From Verrucomicrobiia bacterium (lineage in GTDB: Bacteria > Verrucomicrobiota > Verrucomicrobiia > Limisphaerales > DSYF01): DNA of 64,000 nucleotides. The stretch spans positions 1 through 64,000 of the forward strand of contig DASTWL010000078.1 in NCBI GenBank assembly GCA_035765895.1, in the 5' to 3' direction. The notes beneath the pieces were generated by a model. That model saw only the letters and a program-made list of their open reading frames with translations. It did not search any database and was not told the origin of the DNA. This document shows positions 5,046-12,067 of this stretch, in pieces (within the stretch, counting starts at the first letter, position 1; each line of letters begins with the position of its first letter). The position numbers and the translations under genes are program-made.

Positions 5046-6017
5046 TCAACGGCCCGCCTCGGCGCGCAAAAACGTGACGGGCGCACCGGACCGAACCTCG
5101 GCTTTGACAGCGGCGGGAACCAGTGCAAAGTCACCGGCTTTCAACTCCAGGTTTCCGGCGGCGGACGCCACGGTCATTTCGCCTGCGACCATGCCGAGAA
5201 TGTGCATGACGCCGGCGGGCAGCGCCGTGCGACCAGCGTGTTCCAGACTCACGTGCTCAACCTTGAACAGGGAACACCCGGCGAGCGCCCGGATGCTCGC
5301 ATCGCCAGCTTTGACGGCGTCACGCGGTGCCAGCGGCGGTTCAAAGTCTGCAAAGTCAATGCTCGCCAGCGACTGCGGCACATGCAGTTCGCGCGGCCGG
5401 CCATCCAGCCCGACCCGGTTCCAGTCAAAAACCCGATACGTCGTGTCCGAGTTCTGCTGGATTTCGAAGATAACATTGCCCGCGCCGATGGCGTGAACAC
5501 GCCCGCTGGGCAGGAACATCGCGTCGCCCGCCCGGACGTTGTGCCGGTGAAAACATTCAGCCACCGTGCCGTCCGCGATCTTCCGCTCAAAATCACTCCG
5601 CGTGACCCCTTTCCGCAGGCCAACAAAAAGCGCCGCGTCGGGTTGCGCTTCGGTGATAAACCACATCTCGGTCTTGGGATCGCCTTTCAGTTCGGCTGCC
5701 TTGGCTGACGGTGGATGCACTTGCAGGGAAAGCGTGTCCTTGGCGTCGAGAATTTTAACCAACAGCGGGAACCGGCCGTTCAGTGCCCGCGCTTCGCCGA
5801 GCAGTTCGCGGACGTGGTGTTCCATCAGCCATCGCAAATCGCGTCCGGCCAGCGGGCCGTTGACGATGACACTCACGTCGCCCGGCCGGTCCGTGATTTC
5901 CCACGATTCGCCGATGGGCACCCCGGCCGGGAGTGGCTTGCGGTAAAGACGTTCAAGATTGCGCGCTCCCCAGACACGCTCCTTGAAAATGGGAGTGAAC
6001 TTGAGCGGATAAAGCAT
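5046..6017 (-). CDS. manA: Mannose-6-phosphate isomerase, class I
   Basis: This enzyme interconverts mannose-6-phosphate and fructose-6-phosphate and feeds GDP-mannose (and GDP-fucose) synthesis. The 323-residue product starts with FTPIFKERVWGARNL and GESWEITDRPGDVS and has the zinc ligands in LQVHPP and KTEMWFI and the active-site GRVHAIGAG. It is the short bacterial form, with a degenerate second cupin at the C-terminus. It sits 15 nt downstream of accA on the same strand and may be cotranscribed. The fucose kinase/pyrophosphorylase elsewhere in the window suggests active deoxysugar metabolism. Confidence 0.92.
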   Translation of the reverse strand: MLYPLKFTPIFKERVWGARNLERLYRKPLPAGVPIGESWEITDRPGDVSVIVNGPLAGRDLRWLMEHHVRELLGEARALNGRFPLLVKILDAKDTLSLQVHPPSAKAAELKGDPKTEMWFITEAQPDAALFVGLRKGVTRSDFERKIADGTVAECFHRHNVRAGDAMFLPSGRVHAIGAGNVIFEIQQNSDTTYRVFDWNRVGLDGRPRELHVPQSLASIDFADFEPPLAPRDAVKAGDASIRALAGCSLFKVEHVSLEHAGRTALPAGVMHILGMVAGEMTVASAAGNLELKAGDFALVPAAVKAEVRSGAPVTFLRAEAGR

Positions 6018-6032
6018 GGTTTGGAAGAAGGG

Positions 6033-7028
6033 TCACACCGCCGCCAAGCTGGCCTTGGCGGGACGTTCCGGTTCCTGAAAATGTCCAAAAGCCCGGAACT
6101 TGGCGTAGCGATCCTTCAAACGATCAGCCACGCTCATCCGCGCGACTTCAGCCAAATGCTTCAGCACCTGTTCCTTGAGATTGGCGGCCGTTGTCTTCGG
6201 ATCGGTATGAGCACCGCCCAACGGCTCGGGAATGATGCCATCCACCAGTCCCAATTCCAGCAGGTCGTTGGCGGTGATGCGCAACGCCTCCGCGGCTTTT
6301 GCCGCCGCCGTGCGGTCCTTCCACAGGATCGCCGCACAGCCTTCGGGGCTGATGACAGAATAGTAGGCGTTCTGGAGGATCAACACCCGGTTGGCCACAC
6401 CAATGCCCAAAGCGCCGCCAGAGCCGCCTTCGCCGATGACGACGGCGATGATCGGGACTTCCAGCAGCGTCATTTCCCGCAAATTCACCGCGATGGCCTC
6501 AGCAATGTGCCGTTCTTCGGCGCCGATGCCAGGATACGCGCCGGCCGTGTCGATGAGGGAAATGATGGGCAGACCGAATTTGTCGGCCATTTGCATCAAG
6601 CGCAGCGCCTTGCGATACCCTTCCGGATGCGCGGAGCCGAAGTTCCGCAGGATGTTCTCCTTCGTGTCTCGACCTTTTTGCGTGCCGATGACCATGACCC
6701 GCTGGTCGGCAATTTTGGCAAATCCGCCCACCACGGCGCGGTCATCGGCAAACCGGCGGTCGCCATGCAGCTCATGAAAGTCGGTGAATGCGGTGTTGAT
6801 GTAATCGAGCGCGAAGGGACGCTTGGGATGGCGTGCCAGTTGAACGCGCTGCCAGGGCGTGAGATTGGTAAAAATTTGTTTCCGCGTTTCCTCGATCTTG
6901 CTCTGGATGAGCGCGATTTCCTCCTCAAATTCGATTCCGATGGCGTGCTTTTCCGGATGCGCCTTGAGTTCGTTGAGTTTGTTTTGCAGTTCAACAATCG
7001 GCTTCTCGAAGTCGAGAACGTGTTTCAT
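6033..7028 (-). CDS. accA: Acetyl-CoA carboxylase carboxyltransferase subunit alpha
   Basis: AccA, with AccD, transfers the carboxyl group from biotin to acetyl-CoA to make malonyl-CoA, the first step of fatty acid synthesis. The 331-residue protein has the family start MKHVLDFEKPIVELQNK, then WQRVQLARHPKRP and the crotonase-fold core with PIIAVVIGEGGSGGALGIG and YSVISPEGCAAILWKD. The ATG at 7028 is chosen over an upstream in-frame extension because homologues begin here and a promoter-like pair ends 8 nt before it. manA follows on the same strand. Confidence 0.96.
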   Translation of the reverse strand: MKHVLDFEKPIVELQNKLNELKAHPEKHAIGIEFEEEIALIQSKIEETRKQIFTNLTPWQRVQLARHPKRPFALDYINTAFTDFHELHGDRRFADDRAVVGGFAKIADQRVMVIGTQKGRDTKENILRNFGSAHPEGYRKALRLMQMADKFGLPIISLIDTAGAYPGIGAEERHIAEAIAVNLREMTLLEVPIIAVVIGEGGSGGALGIGVANRVLILQNAYYSVISPEGCAAILWKDRTAAAKAAEALRITANDLLELGLVDGIIPEPLGGAHTDPKTTAANLKEQVLKHLAEVARMSVADRLKDRYAKFRAFGHFQEPERPAKASLAAV

Positions 7029-7036
7029 GGCCGCGC

Positions 7037-7065
7037 AGGTTAAACGCCCCTGCCATGGGTGGCAA
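7037..7065 (-). promoter_or_regulatory. Candidate accA promoter, leaderless type
   Basis: On the minus strand TTGCCA (7060-7065) is followed after 17 nt by TAACCT (7037-7042), which ends 8 nt before the accA ATG. It lies downstream of the 7117-7142 terminator, so accA would have its own start site there. Confidence 0.5.
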
Positions 7066-7106
7066 ACGGGATTTCCAAAACATACCCGGCCAGAAAACAC
7101 CAGAGG

Positions 7107-7142
7107 GAAAAAGGCAGAGGGCCGGATTTGCATCCGGCCCTC
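7107..7142 (-). terminator. Intrinsic terminator on the minus strand
   Basis: A perfect 11-bp stem, GAGGGCCGGAT (7117-7127) with ATCCGGCCCTC (7132-7142), has a 4-nt loop. On the minus strand it is followed by TGCC and a run of five U. It would stop transcripts coming from zwf-pgl, or from an RNA encoded at 7143-7457, before accA. Confidence 0.85.
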
Positions 7143-7186
7143 GGTGACGATGAGGTTTATACGCCGTCGTCCCGGCGCTCAGAAGG

Positions 7187-7265
7187 GTAATGCGGCCAAC
7201 TTGGGGGTCGCTGTTCGAACCGCATTACGAGCAAAACCTCTCTGCCAACCCTAAACGAACAGCGA
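7187..7265 (-). ncRNA. Candidate pseudoknotted RNA in the pgl-accA gap
   Basis: Two perfect inverted repeats interlock: GTAATGCGG (7187-7195) with CCGCATTAC (7220-7228), and TCGCTGTTCG (7208-7217) with CGAACAGCGA (7256-7265). The order A-B-A'-B' with a 2-nt junction is the plan of an H-type pseudoknot. The strand is set by the terminator with a U tract at 7107-7142. The gap (7143-7457) has no supported gene and also holds a tandem TGACGTA repeat (7079+200 to 7093+200, that is 7279-7293). It could be a stand-alone RNA, the 3' UTR of zwf-pgl, or a leader. No known family is recognised. Confidence 0.5.
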
Positions 7266-7457
7266 AATTTCAAACATCTGACGTATTGACGTAGCAAATC
7301 AATTGCCCGTTCAAAACTTTCTCACATTCGTCAAAGAGCCTCAAAACCGCAGCGTTTTTTCGCTGACAGAACTGCTCGCAAAGTGGACTCGAAGCCATGA
7401 ATTGTCAAAAAACTGGACCCAGTTGGCAGAGGCAGAACGGCTTGGGCGCTCTGAGGG

Positions 7458-8183
7458 TCAAGCCAGAGAGATATCAGTGAAGATTTTCGTTCGGCCGCGC
7501 CCCTGAATCACCTTCGCCAGCGGCGTTTGCCCCGTCGTAGCAATCGATTGTGCCAGCGCTGCTTGCTTGCCGGCGCCCGCAACCAATACCCAGACTTCGC
7601 GGGCCGCCGCAATCAAACCGTGACTCATCGTGATCCGGGACGGTGGAGGTTTGGGCGAATTGAACACGGCCCGAAAGACGGAAACGTTGTCGACTTCTGT
7701 CGACAGGTCGCCCGGAAATAACGACGCGACATGGCCGTCTTCGCCCATGCCCAGCAAGATCAAATCCAAACCCGGCATTTGCGGCGCAGGCAAGCCGGCG
7801 ACCCGACGCAGTTCAGCCGTGGCCCGTTCGGCGGCGACCAGGGGATCCAGTTCCCCTTGGATTCGGTGGATCGCCTTGGCCGGCACGGCCGCCGGGCGGA
7901 ACAAGTGTTCGCGCGCCAGCAAGTAATTGCTTTCCGCGTCGTCGGGCGGAACACATCGTTCATCGGCCCAAAAAAATTCCGTCCCGTCGAACGTGAGGTT
8001 TTGCTGGTGAGCCGTCGCCACGGCTGCGGCATAAAACGCCCGGGCAATGCGCCCGCCGGAAAGGGCAACCAAATGCTTTCGGCCTGCGGCGCGGGCCGCC
8101 GCGAGCTGTTCCAACCACGCGCCGGCCGCTGCTTTGGCCAGCGCGGCATCGTCCGCGAAATGACTGACTTCGACCTGTCCCAT
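7458..8183 (-). CDS. pgl: 6-phosphogluconolactonase
   Basis: Pgl hydrolyses 6-phosphogluconolactone to 6-phosphogluconate, the second step of the oxidative pentose phosphate pathway. The 241-residue product (MGQVEVSHFAD...) shows the DevB/SOL motifs VALSGGRIARAFY, FFWADERCVPPDD and LILLGMGEDGHVASLFPG. An in-frame extension to 8387 exists, but it lies inside zwf and does not look like the family. The start at 8183 is 4 nt downstream of the zwf stop, so the two genes form an operon in pathway order. Length matches the family. Confidence 0.95.
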   Translation of the reverse strand: MGQVEVSHFADDAALAKAAAGAWLEQLAAARAAGRKHLVALSGGRIARAFYAAAVATAHQQNLTFDGTEFFWADERCVPPDDAESNYLLAREHLFRPAAVPAKAIHRIQGELDPLVAAERATAELRRVAGLPAPQMPGLDLILLGMGEDGHVASLFPGDLSTEVDNVSVFRAVFNSPKPPPSRITMSHGLIAAAREVWVLVAGAGKQAALAQSIATTGQTPLAKVIQGRGRTKIFTDISLA

Positions 8184-8187
8184 CGAA

Positions 8188-9747
8188 TTACTTGAGCGGC
8201 TGTGGCTCGCGCCAGGCGTGGCCGGAGCGGGCCAGAAGTTCATGAGCCAGTTGCGGTCCCCAACTGCCGGCCGGATAAAATTCGCGATCGTCCAGCCCGA
8301 TGCCGTTCCAACCGGCACGGATGGAATCCACAATCTGCCAGGCCTGTTCCACTTCATCGCGGCGGATGAACAACGTGGCGTCACCACTCACCGCGTCCAG
8401 CAGCAGACGTTCGTAGGCTTCCGGGGTGTAGGCACCAAACTCCGCATCGTAGCTGAAATGCATGCGCACCGGCCGCAGTCCGTAGCCAACGCCCGGCACC
8501 TTGCCGTTGAAGCGCAGGGAAATGCCCTCGTTCGGTTGCAACCGCAACGTCAACGCGTTGGCGTCCAGCCGCGGACCGCATTGGGCCGCGAACAGCACGT
8601 TGGGAGTTTGCCGGAACTGCACGCGCACTTCGCTGGCGCTGATGGGCAGTGCCTTGCCGGTGCGCAGATAAAACGGCACGCCTGACCAGCGCCAGTTGTC
8701 CACGAACAACTTTAACGCCACGAAGGTTTCCACGTTGGAGTGCGGATTGACTTTTTCTTCCTCGCGGTAGGACTTGATCGCCTCCCCGCCGACGCTGCCC
8801 GCGGTGTATTGACCGCGCACCACCATCCGCGCCACCTGCTCCGGCACCATGCGGCGGACGGAGGACAAGAGCTTCACCTTTTCGTCGCGAATCGGTTCGG
8901 CATCCAGCGAAACCGGCGGCTCCATCGTCACCAGCGAAAAGACCTGCAGCAGGTGGTTCTGCACCATGTCACGCAACGCACCCGCCTCCTCGTAGTAGCC
9001 TCCGCGGGAGCCGACGCCCAGTTTTTCGCTGACGGTAATCTGCACGTGGTCCACCGCGTCGCGATGCCAGACGCGCTCGAAGATGGAATTGGAAAAGCGG
9101 AAGGTGAGGATGTTCTGCACCGTCTCCTTGCCCAGATAGTGGTCGATGCGGAAGACCTGCTGTTCCGAGGCAAACTTGGTCAGTTCGTGGTTCAGGGCGC
9201 TGGCCGAGGCGAGGTCGTGCCCGAACGGTTTCTCCACCACCAGGCGTTGCCAGCCTTCGTTCCCTCCGCGATGCAACAATTTGGCGTTGTGGAGCTGCTC
9301 GGCGACGATGCTGAACTGGCTCGGCGACGTCGCGAGGTAAAACAGCAGATTCCCCCGCAGCTGCGGCTTGGGAAAGGCGGATATGACTTGGGAAAGCTTG
9401 GCATACGCCGCCGCGTCCGCGATGTCGCCCCGGCAATAGTGAACATTCGCGGCGAAGGCCGTCCACACCGCGTCGTCCACGGGCTTGGTGCGGGAAAAAC
9501 TGTCCAGCGCCATCCGCAGTTCCTGGCGCCAGGAATCGTCGGTCTTGTCGCGGCGCGCAAAGCCCACGATGCGGAATTCGGGCGGCAGTTGCTTGTCCTT
9601 GAACAAATGGTAAAGCGCAGGGATGAGTTTGCGGGACGTCAGATCACCGCTGGCGCCAAAGATGACGATGGTGCAGGGCTCCACCACCTTGCGGATGCTG
9701 TCCAGCCGGCACGTCATCAGCTCGTCCAAATCTTGATTCACTTCCAT
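8188..9747 (-). CDS. zwf: Glucose-6-phosphate 1-dehydrogenase
   Basis: Zwf oxidises glucose-6-phosphate to 6-phosphogluconolactone with NADP+ or NAD+. The 519-residue protein has the Rossmann motif IVIFGASGDLTSRKLIPAL (about residues 27-45), the substrate-binding FRIDHYLGKETVQN (about 200-213) and FSNSIFERVWHRDAVDHVQI. The C-terminal beta domain is full length. It is followed by pgl after 4 nt. The coupled operon ends at the terminator at 7107-7142. Confidence 0.97.
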   Translation of the reverse strand: MEVNQDLDELMTCRLDSIRKVVEPCTIVIFGASGDLTSRKLIPALYHLFKDKQLPPEFRIVGFARRDKTDDSWRQELRMALDSFSRTKPVDDAVWTAFAANVHYCRGDIADAAAYAKLSQVISAFPKPQLRGNLLFYLATSPSQFSIVAEQLHNAKLLHRGGNEGWQRLVVEKPFGHDLASASALNHELTKFASEQQVFRIDHYLGKETVQNILTFRFSNSIFERVWHRDAVDHVQITVSEKLGVGSRGGYYEEAGALRDMVQNHLLQVFSLVTMEPPVSLDAEPIRDEKVKLLSSVRRMVPEQVARMVVRGQYTAGSVGGEAIKSYREEEKVNPHSNVETFVALKLFVDNWRWSGVPFYLRTGKALPISASEVRVQFRQTPNVLFAAQCGPRLDANALTLRLQPNEGISLRFNGKVPGVGYGLRPVRMHFSYDAEFGAYTPEAYERLLLDAVSGDATLFIRRDEVEQAWQIVDSIRAGWNGIGLDDREFYPAGSWGPQLAHELLARSGHAWREPQPLK

Positions 9748-9816: not shown

Positions 9817-10743
9817 TCATCCACGTCCGCCGGCCGGTTCATGGCGGAACCGCGTCTGCCCCAGCACCACGCCCGTTCCAATCAACAGGATCGCCAGCCA
9901 GAAGGTAGGAGTGACTTTTTCGCCGAGGGTGAAATGCGCCCAGGTCATGGTGCTGAGCGGAATCAAATTATTGAACAAATACACCTTGCTGGTCGGCCAC
10001 CGGCGCAACGCCATGTTCCAAATCCCGAACGCCGCCACGCCGCCCGCCAGCACGCAGTAGCCCTGCACGCCCAGTTGCCAGCCCGTGGGATGCCAGCCGC
10101 GCACGCCGATTTCGCCCGCGCCCGCCAGCGTGAGCAACAGCCCCGCGCGCCACATGGTTTTGGCCGAGACTTCCGCGCCACTCAACCCTTGCGTCAACGT
10201 GCGGCACTGCCGGCCGTAGTTCGTCCAGAGCACGCTGCTGCTGATGCCCAGCACTTCGCCCAGCAAATGAAAACCGCTGTTGCCCAAGGCGGGCCAGAGC
10301 AGCACCAACACGCCCGTCAGCGCCAGCAACGCCGCGCCATAACGTTGCCCGGCAATGCGCGCATCGACCGGCCGGCCCTCCCACAACAGCGCCCAGACCG
10401 GTGCCGCGCCCAGATAAAGCGCCACGTGTGAGGCGGATGTGAAACGCAGGGCCCAGTTAAACGCCATGATGTAGGCCGCCAAACTCAGGCCGCCGCGCCA
10501 CCACAAGCGGCGCCGCAACCCGACGTCCACGGGATGCGCCACGCCAAACCATCGTGTCCACCGCAGCAGCGCCTCCATCACCAGGCCGGCACACAGGAAG
10601 CGCGTTCCGCCGGTCCAGAGGGGCGGCCAGGGCGAGACGGGATGCGAAACCAGATACTTGGTTCCGGCATTGTTCCCGCCCCAAAGAATCACGGCAAAGA
10701 CGATGGCGGCGGCAATGGCAGTGTTGGACGGCCTGCGAAGCAC
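9817..10743 (-). CDS. EamA/DMT-superfamily transporter
   Basis: The 308-residue inner-membrane protein has about ten hydrophobic segments arranged as two EamA repeats. It opens with AIAAAIVFAVILWGGNNAGTKY, where the first repeat's 'WG.N' signature is seen, and ends with WLAILLIGTGVVLGQ. Members export or import amino acids, nucleosides or other metabolites; the substrate cannot be told. The frame is open to 10902, but that overlaps the divergent ispH start. The GTG at 10743 is preferred because it sits just before the first membrane segment and 5 nt after a promoter-like pair. Confidence 0.85.
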   Translation of the reverse strand: MLRRPSNTAIAAAIVFAVILWGGNNAGTKYLVSHPVSPWPPLWTGGTRFLCAGLVMEALLRWTRWFGVAHPVDVGLRRRLWWRGGLSLAAYIMAFNWALRFTSASHVALYLGAAPVWALLWEGRPVDARIAGQRYGAALLALTGVLVLLWPALGNSGFHLLGEVLGISSSVLWTNYGRQCRTLTQGLSGAEVSAKTMWRAGLLLTLAGAGEIGVRGWHPTGWQLGVQGYCVLAGGVAAFGIWNMALRRWPTSKVYLFNNLIPLSTMTWAHFTLGEKVTPTFWLAILLIGTGVVLGQTRFRHEPAGGRG

Positions 10744-10748
10744 GCGCC

Positions 10749-10777
10749 TAGCTAGGGGAACGCGCCCGGCATTGCAA
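10749..10777 (-). promoter_or_regulatory. Candidate promoter of the EamA transporter gene
   Basis: On the minus strand TTGCAA (10772-10777), a 17-nt spacer and TAGCTA (10749-10754) end 5 nt before the GTG start at 10743. This supports the GTG start and a transcript with almost no leader. Confidence 0.5.
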
Positions 10778-10810
10778 TGGCAATCTGGCCCCGGCCGTCC
10801 GGCTTTCGGC

Positions 10811-10838
10811 TCGACGCTGCGCCCGTGCATGATAGATT
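10811..10838 (+). promoter_or_regulatory. Candidate ispH promoter
   Basis: TCGACG (10811-10816), a 16-nt spacer and TAGATT (10833-10838) end 8 nt before the ATG at 10847. The -35 match is modest. It overlaps the alternative upstream ATG at 10829 and so favours 10847 as the start. Confidence 0.4.
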
Positions 10839-10846
10839 GGGCGCGT

Positions 10847-12067
10847 ATGGCAGTTGAAGCTCCCGCCGCCCAAAAAATCAACCTGCGCCGCCCCGACGTC
10901 ATGGAAACGGTTCAGGCGCAGGTCGAACAACATTACCGCAGCGAAATCGTCGAACGCGTCCGCGCCAGCGGCCATCAAATTCGCGCCGGCGAACTGACCA
11001 TCAAACTCGCCAAGGAATTTGGTTTCTGTTACGGCGTCGAGCGGGCCATCGACCTGGCCTACGCCGCCCGCAAGGTGTTTCCCGATCAGCCGCTCTACAT
11101 CCTTGGCGAGATCATTCACAACCCCGAGGTGAACGACCAGATCCGCGCCATGGGCATCAAATTCCTCTCCGGCAAGGACAAGGATGCCGACATCAATGAT
11201 CTCAAGAAGGACGATGTGGTGATCATTCCCGCCTTTGGCACGGAGGTGTCCACCCGCAAGCTGCTCGAGGCCAAAGGCTGCCGCTTCGTGGACACCACGT
11301 GCGGCGACGTCATGAGCGTGTGGAAGCGCGTCCGGCAGTATTCCCGGGACAAGGTCACCAGCATCATTCACGGCAAGGCCTGGCACGAAGAAACCAAGGC
11401 CACCAGTTCGCAGGCCAACCCCGGCAACGGCGGTCACTATCTGGTGGTGTTTACGCTGGCGGAAACGGATTACGTTTGCGACTACATTGAGCACGGCGGT
11501 GACAAGGCGGCCTTCCTGAAAAAATTTGAAGGGGCCTGTTCACAAGGATTCGATCCCGATGTTCATCTCAACGCCATCGGCGTGGCGAATCAGACCACCA
11601 TGCTGCGCGGCGAAACCGAGGAGGTGCAACGCCGGTTGCGGGCGGCCATGGTGCGCCGTTACGGAGCAGCCGAAATCGACCAGCACTTCCGCTTCTTCGA
11701 CACGATCTGCGGCGCCACGCAGGAGCGTCAGGACGCGCTGCAAAAGCTGCTGAACGATCCGCTCGACCTGCTGCTTGTCATTGGCGGCTACAATTCCTCC
11801 AACACCTCGCACCTGGCGGAAATGGGTGAAGCCAAGCTGCCGACCTATTTCATCAAGAATGCCAGCAAAATGATTTCGGACGACGTCATCGTGCATTACA
11901 ACCTGCACCACACCAAGGAGGTCGAATCCCGCGGCTGGCTGCCCAAGGGCCCGGTCACCATCGGCGTCACCGCCGGCGCGTCCTGCCCCAACAATCTCAT
12001 CGAAGACGTCATCCGTCGTTTGTTTGAACTGCGCGGCCTGTCCGCCCAGGAAGTTCTGGCCGCTTGA
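10847..12067 (+). CDS. ispH: 4-hydroxy-3-methylbut-2-enyl diphosphate reductase, long form
   Basis: IspH is the last enzyme of the MEP isoprenoid pathway and makes IPP and DMAPP with a [4Fe-4S] cluster. The three cluster cysteines are seen in EFGFCYGVERAID, FVDTTCGDVMSVW and GASCPNNLIEDV, and the substrate histidines in GEIIHNPEVN and SIIHGKAWHEET. At 406 residues it is about 90 longer than the E. coli enzyme. Its N-terminal extension and inserts match the cyanobacterial/plant-type form. An in-frame ATG at 10829 would add six residues. dgt follows after 4 nt. Confidence 0.95.
   Translation: MAVEAPAAQKINLRRPDVMETVQAQVEQHYRSEIVERVRASGHQIRAGELTIKLAKEFGFCYGVERAIDLAYAARKVFPDQPLYILGEIIHNPEVNDQIRAMGIKFLSGKDKDADINDLKKDDVVIIPAFGTEVSTRKLLEAKGCRFVDTTCGDVMSVWKRVRQYSRDKVTSIIHGKAWHEETKATSSQANPGNGGHYLVVFTLAETDYVCDYIEHGGDKAAFLKKFEGACSQGFDPDVHLNAIGVANQTTMLRGETEEVQRRLRAAMVRRYGAAEIDQHFRFFDTICGATQERQDALQKLLNDPLDLLLVIGGYNSSNTSHLAEMGEAKLPTYFIKNASKMISDDVIVHYNLHHTKEVESRGWLPKGPVTIGVTAGASCPNNLIEDVIRRLFELRGLSAQEVLAA

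Follow-up and report, generated by a model that had tools for sequence, protein, structure and literature searches.

A conserved structured RNA with crossing helices, not described in Rfam, between pgl and accA in Limisphaerales

Two perfect inverted repeats lie interlocked between the genes pgl and accA in the window, by which we mean the whole stretch of 64,000 nucleotides that was analysed. The first, of 9 bp, pairs 7187-7195 (GTAATGCGG) with 7220-7228 (CCGCATTAC); the second, of 10 bp, pairs 7208-7217 (TCGCTGTTCG) with 7256-7265 (CGAACAGCGA). They cross in A-B-A'-B' order with a junction of 2 nt and loops of 12 and 27 nt. The locus raises the question whether these repeats are part of an RNA fold kept by selection and, if so, whether that RNA is a leader of accA, a 3' UTR element of zwf-pgl or a gene of its own.

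A reading made from the sequence alone had proposed a plain H-type pseudoknot built from these two stems and had judged two such stems improbable by chance. Its coordinates, perfection, crossing order, junction and loops all held as given. The judgement on chance held as well: when 7143-7457 was shuffled 20,000 times with its dinucleotides preserved, comparable interlocked perfect repeats (at least 9 bp, within at most 79 nt) arose once. The plain H-type pair held only in part, the fold comprising at least five helices and a terminator. Elsewhere in the window, interlocked perfect repeats were found only at 11231-11296; these are 9-bp inverted repeats inside the open reading frame 10658-12067, which we take, judging by eye, to be ispH-like, and they probably arose by chance.

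By blastn against 58 relatives, the stretch 7109-7268 was conserved well beyond the genus, with 86% identity over 160 nt to other families of the order (range 70-88%). Named contigs carrying it were labelled Limisphaerales, Verrucomicrobia subdivision 3 or Pedosphaera, and further contigs bore other or more general Verrucomicrobia labels. On the minus strand the conserved block starts at helix P1 and ends in a terminator. Ahead of this block, relatives retained nothing but a short TTTGAAC...TC motif. The RNA and its parts, in the order in which they are read, are as follows.

7285..7315, minus strand: promoter candidate TTTGAAC-N19-TCAAT (GAAC at 7312-7309, TC at 7289-7288), conserved upstream in relatives.
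7108..7280, minus strand: whole RNA, about 170 nt long; both ends inferred, the 5' one by way of the promoter candidate and the 3' one by way of the terminator; conservation from blastn and alignment.
7256..7265, minus strand: P1 5' arm, pairing with 7208-7217; 9 of 10 pairs changed on both sides; not in the covariance model.
7241..7255, minus strand: unpaired conserved stretch TTTAGGGTTGGCAGA in the P1-P3 joint, with many near-invariant alignment columns.
7234..7240, minus strand: P3 5' arm, pairing with 7152-7158; 6 of 7 pairs changed on both sides.
7220..7228, minus strand: P2 5' arm, pairing with 7187-7195; 8 of 9 pairs changed on both sides.
7208..7217, minus strand: P1 3' arm, partner of 7256-7265.
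7187..7195, minus strand: P2 3' arm, partner of 7220-7228.
7179..7186, minus strand: unpaired conserved stretch CCTTCTGA in the P2-P4 joint, its TTCTG almost invariant.
7173..7178, minus strand: P4 5' arm, pairing with 7161-7166; the sixth pair, 7173-7166, comes from mutual information.
7167..7171, minus strand: P5 5' arm, within the P4 loop, pairing with 7146-7150; 100% paired, with 4 of 5 pairs changed on both sides; left out of the covariance model.
7161..7166, minus strand: P4 3' arm, partner of 7173-7178.
7152..7158, minus strand: P3 3' arm, partner of 7234-7240.
7146..7150, minus strand: P5 3' arm, partner of 7167-7171.
7107..7142, minus strand: intrinsic terminator, stem (7142-7117) and U tract; the stem covaries.

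The helices thus follow each other on the RNA as P1-P3-P2-P1'-P2'-P4-P5-P4'-P3'-P5', after which comes the terminator, and four crossings result (P1 with P2, P1 with P3, P4 with P5, and P3 with P5). In 26 sequences aligned without reference to structure, 42 pairs were 97.3% paired and 24 of them had changed on both sides; none of 500 shuffles reached this level, and no slid version of the pairing came near it. A covariance model was then built from P2, P3 and P4 only and used to gather 103 copies. P1, unknown to this model, was nevertheless 93.3% paired in the resulting alignment, and for P1 and P5, both outside the model, 13 of 15 pairs had changed on both sides (0/500 shuffles). Over all 36 pairs and 100 distinct sequences, 97.6% were paired, 29 pairs had changed on both sides, and 388 double-change cells were counted as against 108 in shuffles, the observed level being reached by none of 500. 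In distant copies P1 was wholly replaced and still paired, as at the loci L221 (CAGTGTCCG with CGGACACTG) and L232 (GGTGTCCA with TGGACACC). A further pairing (AGGG/CCCU) that would link the P1-P3 joint to the strand following P2 was not kept in the alignment of relatives. Both stems of the original proposal passed the test that had been attached to it, covariation in relatives. The RNA fold is under selection, and the comparative evidence for this is as strong as such evidence gets.

Matches to the covariance model were present in 113 of 245 sampled Limisphaerales genomes, and in 71 of the 129 of good quality. Elsewhere in the phylum no match was convincing: two models, run on several hundred genomes beyond the order, gave marginal scores (23-25 bits) in two of them and nothing more. 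A broader model, applied to 28 relatives without a clear match, returned three matches of 21-25 bits only, so that roughly half of the order seems truly to lack the RNA, which is therefore not essential. Most genomes carry one copy and a few carry two to five, some of them in tandem about 250 nt apart. A tandem array of three copies (G242:C72:59641-60257, locus L213) and another of two (G214:C99:18774-19136, locus L210) were seen, each copy having its own promoter-like box and terminator. For a mobile or phage origin no support was obtained, there being no match to viral patterns or to plasmid, phage or viral collections.

The minus-strand terminator (7142-7117) has an 11-bp stem closed by a loop of 4 nt, and TGCCTTTTTC comes next. 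Of 117 copies, 113 are immediately followed by a terminator; control stretches taken 600 nt beyond had none. The sequence-only reading had called a strong U-tract terminator here, which held, and had expected a minus-strand RNA ending at about 7107; the conserved terminator supports this end, in the absence of transcript data. Within the source genome, only terminator-like fragments of the element recur, among them a 40-nt stretch at G000:C54:5142-5181 that is 88% identical to the terminator region 7117-7142.

Upstream, a GAAC-type box was found within a narrow window in 101 of 116 distinct stretches. TC followed at 18-20 nt past the box in 89 of these 101, and at 18-19 nt in 83. Since the GAAC letters were fixed by the selection of the box, the informative quantities are the frequency of the box and the occurrence of TC at a set distance. 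The RpoE promoter has been given as GAACTT-16/17-TCCAAA (PMC4336711), and the GAAC-to-TC spacing of the RNA copies matches that of the RpoE promoter (PMC4336711). Assignment of the motif to the RpoE/ECF class is inferred from its geometry alone; neither promoter function nor sigma dependence has been shown. A search for a regulon with the promoter pattern returned merely 1-10 scattered sites per genome, and no regulon was evident.

The neighbouring genes, all on the minus strand and including a manA-like isomerase gene that lies downstream along with accA, are as follows.

8188..9747, minus strand: zwf, glucose-6-phosphate dehydrogenase (Pfam PF02781/PF00479).
7458..8228, minus strand: pgl, 6-phosphogluconolactonase, the upstream neighbour (Pfam PF01182, E 2e-59).
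6033..7025, minus strand: accA, acetyl-CoA carboxylase carboxyltransferase alpha, the downstream neighbour (Pfam PF03255, E 9e-144); its open reading frame can be extended to 7133, i.e. into the terminator.

Over 114 loci, pgl was found upstream in 62 and accA downstream on the same strand in 59. Both were present in 41 loci, pgl without accA in 21, and neither was close by in 34, which argues that the RNA is an independent gene and does not serve as a leader of accA. In a divergent family (f7) most copies retain pgl and not accA, from which the site behind zwf-pgl is inferred to be the old one. Where accA has no element beside it, pgl lay within 1.5 kb upstream in none of 21 loci checked; adjacency of pgl and accA therefore goes with the RNA. 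The presence of zwf does not track the RNA, zwf being nearly universal in the order, and in one genome (G043) two RNA copies were found and no zwf. The sequence-only reading had favoured a free small RNA or a zwf-pgl 3' UTR over an accA leader, and this is supported by the many copies without accA nearby. It needs correction in one respect: since the RNA has a promoter-like motif of its own downstream of pgl, a free RNA is to be preferred to the 3' UTR, read-through from pgl not being excluded.

No known family accounts for the element. The first reading knew of no family with such loops. In the whole window, no Rfam 15 family reached its gathering threshold, and a permissive search of 6000-8500 (E up to 10) yielded only sub-threshold chance matches, the best within the element being Sr006 (19.4 bits of 100) and CC0196 (19.0 of 35). 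The element represents a structured RNA family that Rfam does not contain. In large surveys of structured RNAs from bacteria, Verrucomicrobia go unmentioned and Lentisphaerae appear once; this is weak evidence, subscription papers and supplements having been outside the search. A tRNA or tmRNA remnant, suggested by GGTTCGAACC, was rejected, ARAGORN finding none in the window. 6S RNA (RF00013) was rejected as well: it has no match in the window, and 33 of 40 relatives, carriers of the RNA included, encode it separately. As a side observation, the four genomes of the source's own family (f1, G000-G003) all carry the pseudoknot RNA, and 6S RNA was found in none of them. In relatives, the 6S genes (L126-L129) are preceded at about 20-25 nt by TTCTTTG or a close form, possibly a promoter element unlike the GAAC-TC motif.

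Very likely, the element is a free-standing gene for a structured RNA of about 170 nt that acts in trans; trans action is inferred, function has not been shown, and transcript data are lacking. An ECF/RpoE-type sigma factor would transcribe it, and on that inferred dependence a stress or signal may induce its synthesis. The RNA is predicted to be stable and to act without Hfq, for which PF17209 gave no match in 40 genomes of the order, the source included, while five control genomes were positive. It would act by binding a ligand, a protein, or the machinery of transcription or translation. We consider such binding likelier than simple antisense action, given that many families of the order have retained both the sequence and the tertiary fold, and that the knotted fold and its joining stretches are kept together where no Hfq is found. 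A local role stays possible, in view of how often the RNA sits beside zwf-pgl and accA.

Four other explanations were weighed. The one that survives best is an RNA acting in trans chiefly by pairing with mRNAs, for which it would use the unpaired stretches AGGGUUGGCAGA, AGUUGG and CUUCUG, as enterobacterial RpoE-dependent small RNAs do. In its favour are the RpoE-like promoter motif and terminator that the RNA possesses, and the place of the unpaired stretches among its most conserved letters; against it are the lack of any Hfq found in the order (0/40) and a strongly covarying, knotted fold that is more than a seed needs. It remains possible, and it is compatible with the main reading: its strength applies within the case of a free trans-acting RNA, the remainder of which falls to protein or ligand binding or to something unknown.

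Less well supported is a cis-acting element, either a leader or riboswitch of accA or part of the zwf-pgl 3' UTR, with the terminator as expression platform. For this speak the frequency of accA downstream on the same strand (59/114) and of pgl upstream (62/114), together with the 0 of 21 element-less accA loci that have pgl within 1.5 kb upstream. However, the downstream gene is not fixed, with neither neighbour in 34 of 114 loci and pgl without accA in 21, and promoter motif and terminator bracket most copies, tandem ones too. The terminator stem (7142-7117) overlaps neither P5 nor any other conserved helix, so that no alternative fold is evident. We consider this explanation unlikely.

A catalytic RNA is very unlikely. 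Several crossing helices and near-invariant joining stretches could suggest a ribozyme, compact folds with multiple pseudoknots being common among self-cleaving RNAs, but no Rfam ribozyme matched and the gene-like setting offers no evident substrate. That the repeats arose by chance, or are the remains of a degenerate mobile repeat, is all but excluded; nothing speaks for it except the small size of the two stems. The covariation already refutes it, and against it stand also the shuffles (1 in 20,000), the single copy in the source genome (terminator-like stretch aside) and the lack of matches in plasmid, phage or viral collections.

The preferred reading, a free-standing trans-acting RNA, can be set beside known systems. 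The raiA motif RNA, ModT of Clostridioides difficile, is a free-standing, conserved and structured trans-acting RNA that is neither an antisense small RNA nor a riboswitch (PMC11706538); it was found first by comparison, and its function was established later by deletion (PMC11706538). The likeness is one of kind only, since the phyla differ and no Rfam model matches the window. 6S RNA is likewise a free-standing gene of similar length (about 180 nt), though it is a long hairpin with a bubble and not a pseudoknot. With RybB and MicA the Limisphaerales RNA shares a promoter-like motif of the GAAC...TC type right before an RNA gene with an intrinsic terminator. These enterobacterial RpoE-dependent small RNAs are simple stem-loops of about 70-80 nt and depend on Hfq, whereas the present RNA is knotted, about 170 nt long, and occurs in an order in which no Hfq was found. 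Pseudoknotted riboswitch aptamers resemble it in the crossing multi-helix fold and the conserved joining strands; unlike them, it has no fixed downstream gene and no overlap between terminator and fold.

A bolder reading would put the RNA in a class of its own: knotted, induced by a signal, and binding a protein or a metabolite in trans, as an RNA sponge or the core of a ribonucleoprotein, in a branch of the phylum that lacks Hfq. From its site between zwf-pgl and accA it might adjust the supply of NADPH and the synthesis of fatty acids. We offer this reading tentatively, and on balance lean against it.

Non-coding RNAs that are large, strongly conserved and built with crossing helices are few, and several of those first found by comparison proved unusual in function. 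A survey of 2022 listed only eight Rfam small RNA families in the Planctomycetes-Verrucomicrobia-Chlamydiae group (PMC9029176). Limisphaerales are common in the environment and little studied, and the RNA reported here has compensatory changes at most of its pairs. Ready to hand for the family are a covariance model, a hypothesis on its promoter and the names of the neighbouring genes.
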